Positions 19,299-26,986 of a stretch of DNA of 28,808 nucleotides are shown here, piece after piece (within the stretch, counting starts at the first letter, position 1; each line of letters starts with the position of its first letter). The notes below the pieces were generated by a model. It saw only the letters and a list, made by a program, of their open reading frames with translations, had not been told where the DNA came from and searched no databases. The DNA is from a virus: positions 1-28,808 of IMG/VR virus record IMGVR_UViG_3300042566_000808, one strand, 5' to 3'. The position numbers and the translations under genes were made by a program.

Positions 19299-19655
19299 AT
19301 GAACATAATATTTGGCGATGCTATTGAACAAATTGCAACCACTCACACTGTTTTGGAATTGGATACATTTAAACTAATGCCGTCTGAACAACTAATAAAA
19401 GCCTATTGTGTTGTTGATACAATACCATTGACAGAATTTTCAATCTTAGAAAATAATAAAAAAATACATCAACAACTGATAACACAGTATCAACAACAAA
19501 ACTGGGAATTTTGCAAAAGTGCAGCAACTGCATTGCTGGGCAGTTGGAACGGTGAACTAGATACTTTTTATCAACATCTACTAGAGAGAATGACTAAATG
19601 CCAAGAAGCTCCGGATGACAGTTGGTACTACTGGATTGTCAAGAATTCTGATTGA
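19299..19655 (+). CDS. Conserved-looking hypothetical phage protein
   Basis: 118 aa. AAGGA lies about 8 nt upstream of ATG 19299. Blocks: MNIIFGDAIEQI, TVLELDTFKL (18-27), AYCVVDTIPLTEF (35-47), NWEFCKSAATALLGSWNGELDTFY (68-91), a pattern I associate with small T4-like phage proteins of unknown role. Cytoplasmic, alpha/beta. Divergent from the phosphoesterase (25 bp between starts) and convergent with the glycosyltransferase-like gene (17-bp overlap). Confidence 0.72.
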   Translation: MNIIFGDAIEQIATTHTVLELDTFKLMPSEQLIKAYCVVDTIPLTEFSILENNKKIHQQLITQYQQQNWEFCKSAATALLGSWNGELDTFYQHLLERMTKCQEAPDDSWYYWIVKNSD

Positions 19656-20925
19656 TCCACTTGTAAAAATCGTCTATGTCTTGTTGTGTTCTGCCTGGTT
19701 TGACATTGTTATAGTATTTTCCCATCTCAGGATTTAGGCTGGCAATTTCTCCCAGTTTTTTGTACCACATTCCAGTTCGGTTTTGATTCATTATGTCAAT
19801 TGCTTGATTGAGATTGTGTTGATACTCATCAACAACCATGTCATGAAAGTTGGATGAAAAAAACCATTTTTTGTTGTAGTCGGCAATTTCATAAAGTTTC
19901 TCCCATAACAAAGTTTTGTCAGCACGATCTAATTTGGCTATCCTATTCATTTCTGCAATGATCATGTGCAGTCGCGTTGCCGAATCTGTTTCTTGATCGT
20001 AATCTTCGTTTATGATTGGACTGAATGTTTTAAACCCATAGTCTTTTAAATACGCTAAACTTCCTGGTGTAGCTACTGCAATAAACGGCATACCACATGC
20101 TATGGGTCTTAACATTTTTTCTGTAAGGTGATTTCGTTGATCATCAAACAACGTTTCTAAAACTACTTCGATGCCTGCACTACCATAATCATCGTGGTTG
20201 TAGTCTGCACTAGCTGCGGAAGAATGTGTGTTTAATGGCAGGTGAGATTCCAATGCTGTTGAAATTTTAAAATTGGCATTTTGATATTTGTGATCTTGAT
20301 AATGTGTGTCTGAATCAATTGGATTGAAACTTGTTTTGCAATAGGTTGTTAGACTATTTGCGCACAATAATTCTGCAAATTTAAGTCTGTATTCTCTAGT
20401 GCCGGACCAAGCACGATTGTATATTAAAAAATCTGTTTGAATGTTTTTGTGCTTTAGTAAAGGGTCATGCTCGGCAAATCTAAACCAATCTCTAGCTATC
20501 AGTGCATGACTCCAGTAATAAACAGGTACAAATCCTACAGCCTGATATTTTTCCACTTCTGGGCTGTTTTTTTCACTGTGGCATAACATCATTAGATCAT
20601 AGCCAGAATATGCAGTAGGAATAACTCCTCTAATGTGCATTTGAGACAATTGTGCTAACATTTCGGAATGAGCTTGTTGATTAAATCTTTCAAAGGCCAA
20701 AGCAGAAATACTATCGTTACTATACAAATCAAATTGTAAAGGTTCTTGATCGTGAAAGATTATAGCCGGAGTTGTCTGCCCGTAAAACCAGGCAACGTGG
20801 TCCGTAAAGTAAAACTTTAAATCAGCCAATTTTTTTGAGCCATATGGTTTAAAGCCATAAATTATGATATCGTGCTTGCACAAGTCGTGCAAAAAATTAT
20901 ATAATCTATCTAAAGGAACGCTCAT
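19639..20925 (-). CDS. Glycosyltransferase-like protein
   Basis: 428 aa, minus strand. The C-terminal half has blocks of phage glycosyltransferase-like proteins: GIEVVLETLFDDQRNHLTEK (the E..LF...LTEK donor-site pattern), MLRPIACGMPFIAVATPGSL, and YGFKTFSPIINEDYD. The N-terminal half (IIIYGFKPYGSKKL, IIFHDQEPLQFDLY) could be the acceptor domain. The sugar and acceptor are unknown; the neighbouring sugar dehydrogenase suggests a common glycan. The ATG at 20925 overlaps the plus-strand dehydrogenase ATG (CATG); with no ribosome-binding site there, an internal TTG (20892) is an alternative start. Confidence 0.72.
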   Translation of the reverse strand: MSVPLDRLYNFLHDLCKHDIIIYGFKPYGSKKLADLKFYFTDHVAWFYGQTTPAIIFHDQEPLQFDLYSNDSISALAFERFNQQAHSEMLAQLSQMHIRGVIPTAYSGYDLMMLCHSEKNSPEVEKYQAVGFVPVYYWSHALIARDWFRFAEHDPLLKHKNIQTDFLIYNRAWSGTREYRLKFAELLCANSLTTYCKTSFNPIDSDTHYQDHKYQNANFKISTALESHLPLNTHSSAASADYNHDDYGSAGIEVVLETLFDDQRNHLTEKMLRPIACGMPFIAVATPGSLAYLKDYGFKTFSPIINEDYDQETDSATRLHMIIAEMNRIAKLDRADKTLLWEKLYEIADYNKKWFFSSNFHDMVVDEYQHNLNQAIDIMNQNRTGMWYKKLGEIASLNPEMGKYYNNVKPGRTQQDIDDFYKWINQNS

Positions 20926-22165
20926 GGCAAAAATTGGTTTTATTGGAATTGGTAAACTTGGGTTAGACTGTGCCGAAGTAATGGCAGAAAAACATCAAGT
21001 GTGGGGATATGATATTTACCCACGAACAAGTGACTCGGTAAAAGTATGTGGGATTGAAGAACTAGTAACCGAAAGTGAGTGGATTTTTATTGCTGTACCA
21101 ACTCCACATGCACAAGGCTATGATGGATCAATTCCCAGTTCGCATATGGAACCTCGAGACTTTGGGCATGATGCTGTAATTGATGCAATTAAGAATGTCA
21201 ACAAGTACGCAACAACATCTAAGAAAGTTGTGTTAATTTCCACAGTACTACCGGGCACCACACGCAAATATTTTTATCCGTTGTTGGATAAAAAACATCA
21301 GTTCTTGTACAACCCTTACCTCATTGCCATGGGGTCAGTCAAGTGGGACATGGTCAATCCTGAAATGATTATGATAGGCACCGAAGACGGCAACCCTAAC
21401 GCATTGGCTGGTGAACTTCGCGCACTGTATGACACAGTGATGCAGAACAATCCACGCTATGAGATTGGCACCTGGGACGAGTGCGAAGCTATCAAGATCT
21501 TCTACAACACTTTTATCTCAGCCAAGGTTGGTCTTGTGAACATGATTCAAGATTTTGCCATGAAGATTGGACACATCAACGTTGATGTTGTGACTGATGC
21601 TTTAGCACGTTCAACCATGCGCATCATGGGACCCAAGTACATGACAGCTGGCATGGGAGATGCAGGTGCTTGCCATCCACGTGATAATATTGCTCTGCGT
21701 TGGTTAGCACAAGAATATGACATTGGATATGATTTGTTTGATACTGTGATGCATGCCCGTGAGATTCAAGCCAAAAATTTGGCAAATTATTTGGTTCACC
21801 TCAGTGCGATGAACGACGACATGCCTATTGTGATTCACGGCAAGGCCTACAAGCCTGACGTAGAATACTGTATTGGCTCATACTCAACGCTGATCGGGCA
21901 CTATGTTGAACTGGCAGGCCGGTCAGTTGTTTATGTGGATCCATTGGCTGACAATAAAGACAAAGTTGTTGAGTCTGTTGATGAATCTGCAATCTTCTTA
22001 TGGGCGCACAATCGCAAGATCACCTATGAATACACAGGCGATCAAGCCGACACCAAACCATATTGCGATATTTTACCCGGCAGTATTATTGTTGATCCAT
22101 GGCGCAAGTTAGAATCTACCAACGACGTTGAAGTTGTACACTATGGCAACACACGTGGTGCTTGA
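20924..22165 (+). CDS. UDP-sugar 6-dehydrogenase (UDP-glucose/GDP-mannose dehydrogenase family)
   Basis: 413 aa. Oxidises a nucleotide sugar at C6 to the uronate with two NAD. The Rossmann G8-x-G10-xx-G13 and D30 bind NAD; VPTPH (58-62) and STVLPGTT (106-113) line the site; K191 in EAIKIFYNTF and the catalytic C250 in AGACHPRDN match the family K and C (GSCFPKD in UGDH). C-terminal nucleotide-sugar domain has IHGKAYKPDV (family GxAFK). The start ATG 20924 has AAAGGA 6 nt upstream. Whether the substrate is UDP-Glc, UDP-ManNAc or GDP-Man cannot be decided. The 3' end overlaps the next gene by 23 bp. Confidence 0.93.
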   Translation: MAKIGFIGIGKLGLDCAEVMAEKHQVWGYDIYPRTSDSVKVCGIEELVTESEWIFIAVPTPHAQGYDGSIPSSHMEPRDFGHDAVIDAIKNVNKYATTSKKVVLISTVLPGTTRKYFYPLLDKKHQFLYNPYLIAMGSVKWDMVNPEMIMIGTEDGNPNALAGELRALYDTVMQNNPRYEIGTWDECEAIKIFYNTFISAKVGLVNMIQDFAMKIGHINVDVVTDALARSTMRIMGPKYMTAGMGDAGACHPRDNIALRWLAQEYDIGYDLFDTVMHAREIQAKNLANYLVHLSAMNDDMPIVIHGKAYKPDVEYCIGSYSTLIGHYVELAGRSVVYVDPLADNKDKVVESVDESAIFLWAHNRKITYEYTGDQADTKPYCDILPGSIIVDPWRKLESTNDVEVVHYGNTRGA

Positions 22166-22661
22166 GTACCATATTGAACGATTCTGGGATGATGAGTTCA
22201 AAACATTGGACTACATCCAGGAACCATTTAATGATCCAGTGAGCGTACAACAATGGACCGCACTAGGCTATACCAGCAGGTTCTGTGGTGACCTTTGTGA
22301 CATGCGCCATCGCCTGCCTGCATGGACCAGCAAGTTTGTGGAAATGTACGAAGCTCAAGGCTGGCGAGACATAGGTTTGGCGTTTTATCGCATGAGCACA
22401 GACACAGTGATGCCAGTACATCAAGATCTGTACAAACGCTACATTGAAGTGTTTGATCTTCAAGGACAAGAAACTTCTATCCGCCGGGCTTTGTTATTGT
22501 TGGAAGACTGGAAACCCGGACACTATCTGGAAGTAGATGGCCGACCCTATGTTGACTGGAAGGCTGGCCACACAGTTGAGTGGATATATGATGCACCGCA
22601 CATGGCTGCCAATATTGGTCTCGAAGACCGCTATAGTTTACAAATTACTGGACATGTATGA
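22143..22661 (+). CDS. Putative Fe(II)/2-oxoglutarate-type oxygenase (HxD...H fold)
   Basis: 172 aa from ATG 22143 (a TTG at 22128 would add five residues). The second half looks like a double-stranded beta helix: VMPVHQDLY supplies H93-x-D95, APHMAANIG supplies a distal H153, and R163 in EDRYSLQITG is placed to hold 2-oxoglutarate. RALLLLEDWKPGHYLEVDGR is a typical strand pair, similar to aspartyl/asparaginyl beta-hydroxylase-like phage proteins. Substrate unknown; position between a sugar dehydrogenase and an amidinotransferase suggests a small-molecule or glycan role. It overlaps both neighbours (23 bp; ATGA). Confidence 0.68.
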   Translation: MATHVVLEYHIERFWDDEFKTLDYIQEPFNDPVSVQQWTALGYTSRFCGDLCDMRHRLPAWTSKFVEMYEAQGWRDIGLAFYRMSTDTVMPVHQDLYKRYIEVFDLQGQETSIRRALLLLEDWKPGHYLEVDGRPYVDWKAGHTVEWIYDAPHMAANIGLEDRYSLQITGHV

Positions 22662-23572
22662 TATCGAGTTTTGATGAGTGGAGCCCACTAAAAAAAATAG
22701 TAGTAGGTAGTGCAACTGACGCAAACTGGCCAGTGAACGATCCTGTGTTTTCTCGAGAATCAGAAAAAACCACTTGGACGGAAACACCTGTTCCACGTGG
22801 CCCTGTTCCTCAGCGCATAATTGATGAAGCCAACGAAGATCTAGATATTCTGGCAACAACTTTAATGAGTTTAGACGTAGAAGTTGTGCGCCCAGATCTA
22901 CTCAACTTCCAAACTCATGATGGCATGTACAATTATTGTCCTCGCGACCGATTCCTTGTATACGGTTCAACCATAGTAGATCCTGCTATGATGTATCCTT
23001 GTAGAGACATGGAACTGCAATGCTACCACGATATTGTGGATTCTGCTGACCACTACAAGTTCATGCCACGCAACGAAGGCATGACTTTGGACGCTGCCAA
23101 TGTGTGTCGTCTTGGCGACAAAATGTTGTATTTGGAATCAGCGTCAGGCAATCAAAAAGCCTACCACTGGTTACGCGAGCAGTTTCCAGATGTCACAATA
23201 GAATTGTGCAACTTTTATGCTGGTGTACACATTGATTCAACCATTGTGCCACTACGTGAAGGTTTGGTCATGTTAAACGGAAGCAGAGTGGGATTTGATA
23301 CTGTGCCCCGAGTGTTTGATGGTTGGCACAAGATTTGGATAAACGATGTTGTGGCCCAGGACTTTTACCGTTATCCATATGCATCAAAATGGATTGCCAT
23401 GAACATGTTAGTGGTAGATCCGCACACTGTGATCTGCGATGCTGACCAAACTGAATTGATCAAAACACTAAAGAGTTATCAATTTGAAGTTATACCATTA
23501 CGGTTAAGACAAAGCCGCACTCTTGGAGGCGGCTTTCATTGTGTTACGTTAGATTTAGTACGTCAACGTTAG
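22658..23572 (+). CDS. Amidinotransferase (glycine/inosamine amidinotransferase family)
   Basis: 304 aa. Transfers an amidino group, normally from arginine, through a Cys-amidino intermediate. Catalytic triad by family comparison: D145 (TLDAANV; GATM D254), H191 (GVHIDST; GATM H303), C295 (GGGFHCVTLDL; GATM C407). CPRDRFLVYG (94-103) is the conserved propeller entry strand. The N-terminus SSFDEWSPLKKIVVG fits the family start. Shorter than human GATM (423 aa) and near StrB1-type and arginine-deiminase-fold bacterial enzymes. Acceptor amine unknown. Starts in the preceding stop (ATGA) and ends convergent, 4-bp overlap, with the next minus gene. Confidence 0.9.
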   Translation: MISSFDEWSPLKKIVVGSATDANWPVNDPVFSRESEKTTWTETPVPRGPVPQRIIDEANEDLDILATTLMSLDVEVVRPDLLNFQTHDGMYNYCPRDRFLVYGSTIVDPAMMYPCRDMELQCYHDIVDSADHYKFMPRNEGMTLDAANVCRLGDKMLYLESASGNQKAYHWLREQFPDVTIELCNFYAGVHIDSTIVPLREGLVMLNGSRVGFDTVPRVFDGWHKIWINDVVAQDFYRYPYASKWIAMNMLVVDPHTVICDADQTELIKTLKSYQFEVIPLRLRQSRTLGGGFHCVTLDLVRQR

Positions 23573-23906: not shown

Positions 23907-24938
23907 ATGACTACACACTCACGTTTTGGCTTTTGTTGCAAATGGCTCAATGACCCCGAGGAAACTGGGGGCATGAAAGTCAATGCTGTGGACCGTGACA
24001 TAAACGGAAGATCAACTACCATGCGCTGGCTGCGTGAGCATGCTGCCGAAGCTGACCAGCGTCAGTGGGATATCATGAACCATAACGCTGCCGCGGCCCT
24101 TAAAATGGTTGAGCGTGTGGGTGCAATGGAACCCGAGCGCAGAATGGTGCGACTGGGATCAGAAATGTTACAGGGCTATACAGAACCCTCGTGGATCAAT
24201 TGGTGGCAACGACGTGAAATTCAAGATCATTGCGAACGCATATTCGCGCCGGTTGGTGACGCTGCTCGGCGTTTGGGTGTTCGGCTTTCCTTCCATCCAG
24301 GGCAATTTTGTGTGCTGGCAAGCGAATCGGATGAAATCGTTGAACGATCCATTTTGGAATTCGAGTATCATGCAGATATGGCCCGGTGGATGGGGTATGG
24401 AAACACGTATCATGATCACGGATTTAAGATTAACGTACACTTATCGGGCAAGGGCGGTCCTGCTAAGTTTTTGCGTACCTTGAGCAGACTAAGTACAGAA
24501 GCCCGAAACTTAATCACAATAGAAAATGACGAACTTACAAATGGACTTGACGTTACTCTTGCCGTGGCTGATCATGTGGCTCTTGTGCTGGATATCCATC
24601 ACCACTGGATCAATACCGGCGAATATATCACCCCTACGGACCCACGTGTGCAACGGGTTATTGAGTCTTGGCGTGGTGTGCGTCCTACACTACACTACTC
24701 AGTTAGTCGTGAAGACTGCCTTGTTGACCACTCTCGCACAGTAAAGCCTGACTTGAGTGCGCTGTTGGCACAGGGCTACAAAAAGCAAAAACTGCGAGCC
24801 CACAGTGACTTCTATTGGAACGAAGCTGTGAATGATTGGGCACTGACATTCGCTGATCAATTCAACATTCAGTGCGAGGCCAAAGGCAAGAATCTGGCTC
24901 GGGATCAATTATACCAGCAATGGCTGGCCACTCGATGA
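23907..24938 (+). CDS. uvsE: UV damage endonuclease UvdE/UvsE
   Basis: 343 aa. A metal-dependent TIM-barrel nuclease that nicks 5' to UV photoproducts in an alternative excision pathway. Family motifs: RFGFCC at the start, LSFHPGQFCVL (127-137), INVHLSGKGG (175-184), ENDE (206-209) and DIHHH (229-233), which carry the metal ligands (His, Glu, Asp). Length and order match bacterial UvsE. T4 itself uses the unrelated DenV glycosylase. No ribosome-binding site precedes the ATG, and a weak promoter (TAGACT-17-TACAAT, 23872-23900) would start transcription at the ATG. Confidence 0.94.
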   Translation: MTTHSRFGFCCKWLNDPEETGGMKVNAVDRDINGRSTTMRWLREHAAEADQRQWDIMNHNAAAALKMVERVGAMEPERRMVRLGSEMLQGYTEPSWINWWQRREIQDHCERIFAPVGDAARRLGVRLSFHPGQFCVLASESDEIVERSILEFEYHADMARWMGYGNTYHDHGFKINVHLSGKGGPAKFLRTLSRLSTEARNLITIENDELTNGLDVTLAVADHVALVLDIHHHWINTGEYITPTDPRVQRVIESWRGVRPTLHYSVSREDCLVDHSRTVKPDLSALLAQGYKKQKLRAHSDFYWNEAVNDWALTFADQFNIQCEAKGKNLARDQLYQQWLATR

Positions 24939-25309: not shown

Positions 25310-26986
25310 ATGGACAGATATAGAGAACTTGAACAACTCATAACACAATTTAGAAGAAACTTACCCCAAGACCAACACTACGCAGACAGACTGGCAGAAG
25401 AACTAGAACTAATAAGAGATCAAAATTTTGCTCGACATTTTTTGCGAGTGAGAGAAATACTAGATCTCACAACAGACATACCACACATCACAAGAGGATC
25501 AGCAGGATCCAGCCTGGTGTGCTGGCTCATGGGCATCAGTGATCTTGATCCTGTGGCAGAAAACATCCCCATAGCACGTTTCATGAATCCCAAACGTGAT
25601 GACTTACCCGATATTGACCTAGACTTTCCACATTGGCAACAGGCCACGGTGATGAATAGAATATTCAAACGATGGCCTGGACGAAGTGCTAGAGTTTCAA
25701 ACTATGTAATGTACAAGGAAAAGTCAGCCAAGAGAGAAGCAGCCAAAAGACTAGGCGCCAAAGGCACACTCAAACGAGGTTTTGAATTCAATCAAGTGCT
25801 ACCGCCAGAAGAAATAGAAGAAGCCGAACGTGTAACAGCCAAACTCATGGGCAAGAAACGCTGTATATCCAAACACTGTGGAGGCATCTTGATTTTTGAT
25901 CGTGCTGTGCCCAAGAGCCTGATCAACGGCGACAATCAAATCTTGTTGGACAAATACGAAACTGAAGATCTTGAACACTTCAAAATTGATATCTTGGCCA
26001 ATCGCGGATTAAGCCAACTGTGGGAAATTGATCAGCGTCCGTTAACTGACTATCCCGAACATGATCAAGCCACCAGCGATCTGCTGGGACGTGGTGATGT
26101 GCTGGGTGTGACGCAGGGCGAGTCACCGGCCATGAAAAGACTGTTCAGGGCTCTCAAAGTAAAGAGCCGTAGTGACTGTACCTTGGCCACTGCACTGATC
26201 CGACCAGTGGCCACACAGGGTCGTCGCAAGGCATCAGCGTTTCAAGACTGGTCAGCAGATACCATACAGCAAGACACAGTGGTATTTGAGGATGATGCCA
26301 TAACCATGATTGCTGATATCTTGGAATGCGATATGTACACCGCGGACATGTGGCGCAGAGCCTTTGCCAAACGCAACGAAGAAAAGATCTATGAATTCAT
26401 GCAGTTGATCGGGGATCATCCCAAAAGAGACAGTGTGCTGAGTGCCTTGAGAGAACTCAGTCATTTTGGTCTTTGCCGCGCTCATGCCACTAATTTAGGT
26501 AGATTGATCTGGGCCTTGGCCTATCAAAAGGCACACAATCCTGAACAATTCTGGAGAGCCTGCTTGAAACATTGTGAAGGCAGTTACAGTCGTTGGGTGT
26601 ATTATCAAGAAGCCAAATTGGCCGGTGCTGTGCATGCTCCAATGGAGGGAGGTGAGTGTGAGGAACTGGCTCGTACTGGTCGTTGGACCAGCGGTAGATT
26701 TATTCCGGCCTGCACAGAAATACGACGTCCGGGTGAAATAGAATTTTTGGGACTGGTTGCCAATTATCGAGTGTTCAAAAGCGGTGCCAAAGATTACATT
26801 ACCTTTGCTACCCTGGGCACCGGCAACGGACGTTACTTGGATGTGATACTACCACATGCTATCTCATTCTCAGATCAACCAATTCTATGGGGGAAAGGCC
26901 GGTTGGACTATACAAACAGTTCAGAATGTGTTAAAGTATACAAAAGCAAACGCATGCGACTGCAAGACATAGCACACATTGATTAA
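25310..26986 (+). CDS. Short family C DNA polymerase (DnaE-like) without PHP domain
   Basis: 558 aa (E. coli DnaE 1160). The palm and fingers of DNA polymerase III alpha are recognisable: RGSAGSSLV (62-70; DnaE GRGSGAGSLV), LPDIDLDF with D103/D105 (DnaE D401/D403), HFKIDILANRGL with D227 (D555), GVTQGESPAMKRL (DnaE GVFQLESRGMK), and FGLCRAHATNLGRLIWALAYQ (fingers H-A-x-x). All three catalytic aspartates remain. The N-terminal PHP domain and most C-terminal modules are absent; IEFLGLVANYRVF-KSGAKDYITFATL may be an OB-like remnant. T4-like phages normally use the family B gp43, so this may be an accessory or repair polymerase. Coupled to the next gene by TAATG. Confidence 0.9.
   Translation: MDRYRELEQLITQFRRNLPQDQHYADRLAEELELIRDQNFARHFLRVREILDLTTDIPHITRGSAGSSLVCWLMGISDLDPVAENIPIARFMNPKRDDLPDIDLDFPHWQQATVMNRIFKRWPGRSARVSNYVMYKEKSAKREAAKRLGAKGTLKRGFEFNQVLPPEEIEEAERVTAKLMGKKRCISKHCGGILIFDRAVPKSLINGDNQILLDKYETEDLEHFKIDILANRGLSQLWEIDQRPLTDYPEHDQATSDLLGRGDVLGVTQGESPAMKRLFRALKVKSRSDCTLATALIRPVATQGRRKASAFQDWSADTIQQDTVVFEDDAITMIADILECDMYTADMWRRAFAKRNEEKIYEFMQLIGDHPKRDSVLSALRELSHFGLCRAHATNLGRLIWALAYQKAHNPEQFWRACLKHCEGSYSRWVYYQEAKLAGAVHAPMEGGECEELARTGRWTSGRFIPACTEIRRPGEIEFLGLVANYRVFKSGAKDYITFATLGTGNGRYLDVILPHAISFSDQPILWGKGRLDYTNSSECVKVYKSKRMRLQDIAHID

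Follow-up and report, generated by a model that had tools for sequence, protein, structure and literature searches.

The substrate of StrB1 is an aminocyclitol phosphate, and its product is a guanidino-cyclitol. This enzyme, the L-arginine:inosamine-phosphate amidinotransferase of the streptomycin pathway (PDB 1bwd), is the best solved homologue of the phage amidinotransferase considered here. A survey of 229 NDP-sugar dehydrogenases has identified 18 invariant residues and has shown that Tyr10, which is 98% conserved, catalyzes the hydrolysis of the thioester (PMC4794789). The crystal of human UGDH E161Q contains a bound thiohemiacetal intermediate (PMC3184952). The DNA of Bacillus phage SP-15 bears phosphoglucuronate, with the product placed on 5-dihydroxypentyluracil (PMC5977210).

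The window, meaning the whole stretch of DNA that was analyzed, is a 28.8 kb IMG/VR virus record of a large uncultured freshwater phage. It carries phage genes for a ribonucleotide reductase (RNR), a DNA ligase, a UvdE-type endonuclease and a partial DnaE-type polymerase. Positions 19639-23572 hold a cassette of four intact open reading frames (ORFs), with the glycosyltransferase gene on the minus strand followed by three genes on the plus strand:

19639..20925, minus strand: putative GT-B-like glycosyltransferase (GT), divergent from UGDH and the fastest-evolving member of the cassette
20924..22165, plus strand: UGDH-like NAD-dependent nucleotide-sugar 6-dehydrogenase (UGDH), assigned from Pfam, PHROG and PDB matches and alignment
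22143..22661, plus strand: predicted Fe(II)/2-oxoglutarate (2OG) oxygenase (OX), Asp/Arg-hydroxylase-like, assigned from the HxD...H...R motif, AF2 and Foldseek
22658..23572, plus strand: predicted L-arginine:amine amidinotransferase (AMT) of the StrB1/AGAT group, assigned from the phmmer match to 1bwd and the catalytic triad
23907..24938, plus strand: UvdE-like UV-damage endonuclease (PF03851, 8.7e-30), outside the cassette

The UGDH start is the ATG at 20924, the listed ORF start at 20864 lying further upstream, and the GT and UGDH start codons overlap in the sequence CATG at 20923-20926. The OX gene most likely begins at the ATG at 22143 rather than the TTG at 22128, because the resulting 23-bp overlap with UGDH is the commonest spacing among relatives. 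The overlap between OX and AMT is 4 bp. Further downstream, a 558-aa DnaE-like ORF (25310-26986) matches the Pol III alpha model only over its NTPase and finger domains; it is possibly a split polymerase, and its closest relative among phage records belongs to an uncultured 484-kb phage (36%).

The AMT matches StrB1 at 2.7e-57 (phmmer) over residues 2-302 in two stretches, and it scores better to this enzyme than to HsvA, AGAT or SxtG. The two proteins have in common an Asp/His/Cys triad and the motif SRTLGGGFHC(V/A)TLD. In the phage enzyme the triad is D145, H191 and C295; the latter two residues are present in 183/183 relatives, while the D145 position is Asp in 169 and Glu in 14 of the 183. 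The phage AMT is shorter than StrB1, by ~23 residues in the segment that separates the two aligned stretches, and it adjoins OX and UGDH with no cyclitol pathway around it. It is predicted to be a StrB1/AGAT-group enzyme that transfers the amidino group from arginine to an amine. A tree grouping phage AMTs with two loci from metagenome-assembled genomes (MAGs; L255 and L257) had low support (84/32) at the fork concerned and was not used as a basis.

As single sequences, the window GT and OX had no match in Pfam, PHROGs or NCBIfam, and a sequence-profile search against the PDB returned nothing useful for either. Structure prediction was therefore used. The AF2 model of OX (pLDDT 92.5) matched prolyl-4-hydroxylase (P4H), AsqJ and AspH in Foldseek (4j25, 1.6e-6). 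The iron and 2OG residues H98, D100, H158 and R168 (numbering from TTG 22128) occur in 183/183 relatives. Weak matches to PF05118 (Asp_Arg_Hydrox), up to 0.1, were found in 9/37 OX members, the best at 1e-4; the window OX itself had none. The model and the motif point to a double-stranded beta-helix 2OG-oxygenase fold and a predicted Fe(II)/2OG oxygenase. The GT belongs to a family with the signature HDQEP...TEK...PF..GxxxxL..YGFxTF. Its AF2 model was built from 56 relatives (pLDDT 95.2), and the top Foldseek matches were the GT-B enzymes SenB, SdgB, OtsA and PglA, all weak (best E 2.4e-3, TM ~0.3), with zero matches at E<=0.001. The model thus suggests a GT-B-like glycosyltransferase, with weak fold matches.

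The UGDH matches both the central (5e-15) and N (2e-14) domains of the Pfam UDPG_MGDP_dh family, PHROG 9148 (2.6e-89) and the UGDHs of the PDB (~1e-13), and falls below the cut-off of NCBIfam TIGR03026 (132.5 vs 189.8). By sequence it is clearly a member of the NDP-sugar dehydrogenase superfamily and is filed here as UGDH-like, not as UGDH. A preliminary description of this DNA had named adjoining genes for a glycosyltransferase-like protein, a nucleotide-sugar 6-dehydrogenase, an HxD...H oxygenase-like protein and an amidinotransferase. These classes were named correctly, going by Pfam for UGDH, the StrB1 match for AMT, the HxD...H...R motif and fold for OX and the GT-B-like model for GT.

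The adjacency of the four genes is not due to chance, as it recurs in about 80 loci. UGDH and OX lie directly upstream of AMT in 80/80 AMT-anchored IMG/VR loci, and the divergent GT is present in ~74/80. Scattering in other phages had been named beforehand as the finding that would count against a functional cluster; the genes remain together. Many of these loci belong to jumbo phages of 200-364 kb. The 80 loci include the identical virus from separate samples, leaving 52 distinct full-length cassettes, and were picked for resembling proteins of the window, a bias toward its close relatives. The cassette is retained where UvdE, a metallophosphoesterase and other window neighbors are absent or displaced (e.g., L045, L051, L069 and L085). 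The UvdE-like gene is a common downstream neighbor (58/81 loci) and is missing where the flanks are rearranged. In some relatives, a third AMT paralogue of 379-398 aa follows directly after UvdE, adjoining the cassette (L310 6614-7753; L315 7980-9176).

The spacing of the genes is similarly constrained. The OX/AMT overlap is 4 bp in 56/62 relatives, that between UGDH and OX is 23 to 41 bp, and the GT and UGDH starts lie -2 to +3 bp apart in most. OX is accompanied by AMT in 72/73 OX-anchored loci, the sole exception being truncated by the contig end, whereas UGDH occurs without both in 31/71 UGDH-anchored loci; OX and AMT are therefore the core pair. UGDH, as their partner, has a role in other sugar clusters too and may supply such clusters in general. 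UGDH-only loci are likewise located in sugar clusters and usually contain a NadE-like gene (29/33, including those of Synechococcus phage Bellamy and Pelagibacter phage HTVC008M). One of them (L185 8078-14021) encodes a QueE-like radical SAM protein, a NadE-like protein and UGDH, then two SGNH-like proteins and a 5′ exonuclease-like gene. Two other loci (L131 and L155) carry OX, AMT and GT, and tblastn found no window-type UGDH in them. Taken together, the four genes appear to form one transferable glycan-tailoring cassette, locked in synteny.

Within this unit, the genes diverge at different rates. Median pairwise identity across the 52 cassettes is 0.80 for UGDH, 0.74 for AMT, 0.61 for OX and 0.44 for GT, and GT is the lowest of the four in 1317/1326 pairs. 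A fast-evolving GT acting on constant chemistry would be expected if the acceptor varies among phages. Phage-encoded GTs are able to act on virion proteins, and the rapid evolution of the GT could suit the same sugar chemistry decorating a virion protein instead of a host glycan. This is considered improbable, however, as no conserved structural gene accompanies the cassette, whose neighbors vary while it stays constant.

The dehydrogenase of the cassette belongs to a clade with unusual replacements. In an alignment of 224 homologues, including those of Bellamy and HTVC008M, Tyr10 is replaced by Lys, Glu141 by Tyr and Asn287 by Arg in 224/224, and Gly257 by Ala in 219/224, with 15/18 of the reported invariant residues kept. 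The window UGDH has Lys11, Tyr132, Arg279 and Ala247 at these positions, and the motif NPYLIAMG takes the place of the canonical NPEFLxEG in the clade. The equivalents of catalytic Cys260, Lys204, Asn208, Asp264 and Thr118 are invariant in all 224; in the window UGDH, Cys250, Lys191, Asn195 and Asp254 are kept. Human UGDH, AglM and TuaD have in common with the clade the Rossmann GxGxxG, the Ser-Thr and the equivalents of Lys204, Asn208, Cys260 and Asp264; the clade differs from them at Tyr10, Glu141, Asn287 and mostly Gly257. By the NPEF motif, human Glu161 aligns in the present analysis with the Glu141 position.

These residues suggest that the clade probably still oxidizes C6, and that it may use a different product release or another substrate. 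The preliminary description had proposed a guanidino-bearing or uronic sugar. The uronic part is weakened, since a uronate product is doubtful for a clade that lacks Tyr10 and Glu141. It could be postulated that the clade has lost the water-driven release of the thioester, that the C6 acyl group passes to an amine or is released as an aldehyde rather than a uronate, and that OX and AMT complete a guanidino-amide sugar with which giant phages relabel surfaces. This extended scheme is a long shot, but if true, the guanidino-amide sugar would be a class undescribed so far. The oxidation machinery is kept and "invariant" residues are lost, which makes the question of thioester release directly testable.

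The current proposal, judged about even in its chances of being right, is that the cassette carries out glycan tailoring with guanidine chemistry; it is the best reading of the sequences, synteny and predicted structures. UGDH would form a cysteine adduct with a nucleotide sugar and, using NAD, oxidize it at C6. AMT would transfer the amidino group of L-arginine to the amine of a sugar, glycan or sugar-linked group, forming a guanidine and releasing ornithine. OX could hydroxylate the product or its amine-bearing part, and GT would transfer the sugar onto an acceptor glycan, a different one from phage to phage. The most likely target would be the host envelope or the virion, where the modification would presumably mask receptors, exclude superinfection or protect the particle. 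The cassette itself has no aminotransferase that would point to a candidate amine acceptor; a DegT-family match lies elsewhere in 13/14 long cassette-bearing records.

The guanidino part of the earlier proposal has gained ground. A guanidino sugar is preferred because StrB1 is the nearest homologue, GT is locked to AMT, and AMT paralogues lie beside sugar aminotransferases at other sites in these phages; sugar guanidinylation is favored mainly because AMT recurs alongside GT and amino-sugar genes. Four long cassette-bearing records contain a second cluster, with an epimerase, a DegT aminotransferase, two GT-family genes and a divergent amidinotransferase, AMT2 (L291 6883-17540; L292 1699-10673; L293 6818-17990; L294 7605-16315). 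Carbamoyltransferase or tryptophan-halogenase-like genes adjoin it in three of the four. The opposite strand encodes a large protein of 543-1267 aa, which in L292 contains repeats.

The pairing extends beyond the cassette-bearing phages. One locus (L255) has a consecutive 2OG oxygenase, AMT and GT-family gene, after which come a short DegT aminotransferase gene and a carbamoyltransferase gene. A Bdellovibrionota MAG with uvrC nearby (L257) has OX, AMT and GT within 4.5 kb (E 1.7e-28, 1.8e-88 and 3.1e-32, respectively), and an OX profile searched against 291 genomes of this phylum found the original genome only. L232 and L255 are binned as Bacteroidetes and Chloroflexi MAGs and resemble phage DNA, L255 being marine phage-like; L232 has cassette genes with an AMT 61% identical.

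It is also conceivable that the joint product of OX and AMT is a hydroxylated guanidino amino acid or a similar metabolite, with UGDH and GT as loose neighbors or as the enzymes that glycosylate it. OX is similar to Asp/Arg beta-hydroxylases, the AMT relatives AGAT, SxtG and HsvA use free amines (AMT acceptors: PMC3684758), OX-AMT is the tightest pair, and a bacterial AMT relative (L240) adjoins a 1421-aa adenylation-type protein. Nevertheless, GT is tied to OX-AMT in the phages, L255 and L257, and the second AMT cluster contains two GTs and sugar genes, so that this small-molecule route is rated as somewhat unlikely.

AMT-like loci number 1-6 per long record (n = 14; distinct loci counted by hand), with six in G004 and G005, and GT-family matches number 2-14 in the same set. 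The AMT-like genes are expanded, and some are isolated amid unrelated genes (G001-G014; L309, L311, L312, L313 and L314). Ornithine is the by-product of AMT and several AMT-like genes are found in these phages, as might be expected if the enzyme used arginine to supply ornithine or polyamines or to deplete arginine, with the sugar genes incidental. Such a metabolic role is very improbable: a transfer enzyme coupled to OX and beside GT would be a poor design for removing arginine, and no polyamine gene was seen within the cassette.

Guanidinylation of a glycan remains the preferred reading. The literature on phage amidinotransferases with glycosyltransferases or on guanidino sugars, in what was an incomplete coverage, does not describe this combination. 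That many uncultured giant phages keep these four genes as a fixed unit, and that a bacterium has a related OX-AMT-GT trio, hints at unrecognized guanidine-bearing glycans, and the four small soluble enzymes are suited to assay.

Among the described phages, SP-15 provides the precedent for placing such a sugar on modified bases of the phage genome, a target that the preliminary description had also named. SP-15 has a UGDH and DNA with phosphoglucuronate (PMC5977210), and the present cassette sits amid DNA-metabolism genes (RNR, ligase, UvdE and DnaE); DNA hypermodification was considered on account of this precedent and neighborhood. As in the cassette, the SP-15 UGDH adjoins a GT. However, it is canonical and lies outside the clade, and the relatives of the window GT are numerous, several being within sugar clusters. 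SP-15 has two ThyX-type enzymes, one of which is thought to produce the modified base. In the 14 long records, some incomplete, a QueC-like preQ0 synthase, looked for as a sign of 7-deazaguanine DNA modification, was found in 0/14. Thymidylate synthase of the PF00303 type was present in 2 records and ThyX was present in 9, with no record having more than one of them, and no dedicated second base-modifying synthase of the thymidylate synthase type was found. With QueC missing and thymidylate synthase single or absent, DNA decoration is unlikely, and its probability is put very low.

Other phages resemble the cassette in part. Bellamy and HTVC008M, T4-like marine phages, encode UGDHs of the same clade (54% and 48% identity) in sugar clusters, paired with a NadE-like ATP-PPase and a carbamoyltransferase rather than with OX and AMT. 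Campylobacter phage CP220 has an AMT-like gene beside sugar-transferase-like genes, as in the cassette, although this AMT is only 25% identical and radical SAM enzymes take the place of OX and UGDH. Its gp085, which adjoins the AMT, was rejected as an OX candidate as the HxD...H motif is absent. In Synechococcus phage S-SCSM2R, an AMT2-like gene has as neighbors two 2OG oxygenases and the Kdo-synthesis genes KdsA and KdsB (L296 21919-26337).

The cassette is real and appears to be a variant form of phage glycan-modification clusters, its exact product being a prediction. S-SCSM2R, a cultured cyanophage and a possible tractable model, has an oxygenase immediately upstream of AMT within a glycosyltransferase operon (31% identity for OX and 35% for AMT). 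Its UGDH, unlike that of the cassette, lies ~36 kb away, adjoins NAD synthase and is of the canonical NPE type, and the UGDHs of S-SCSM2R and SP-15 both carry the canonical Glu.
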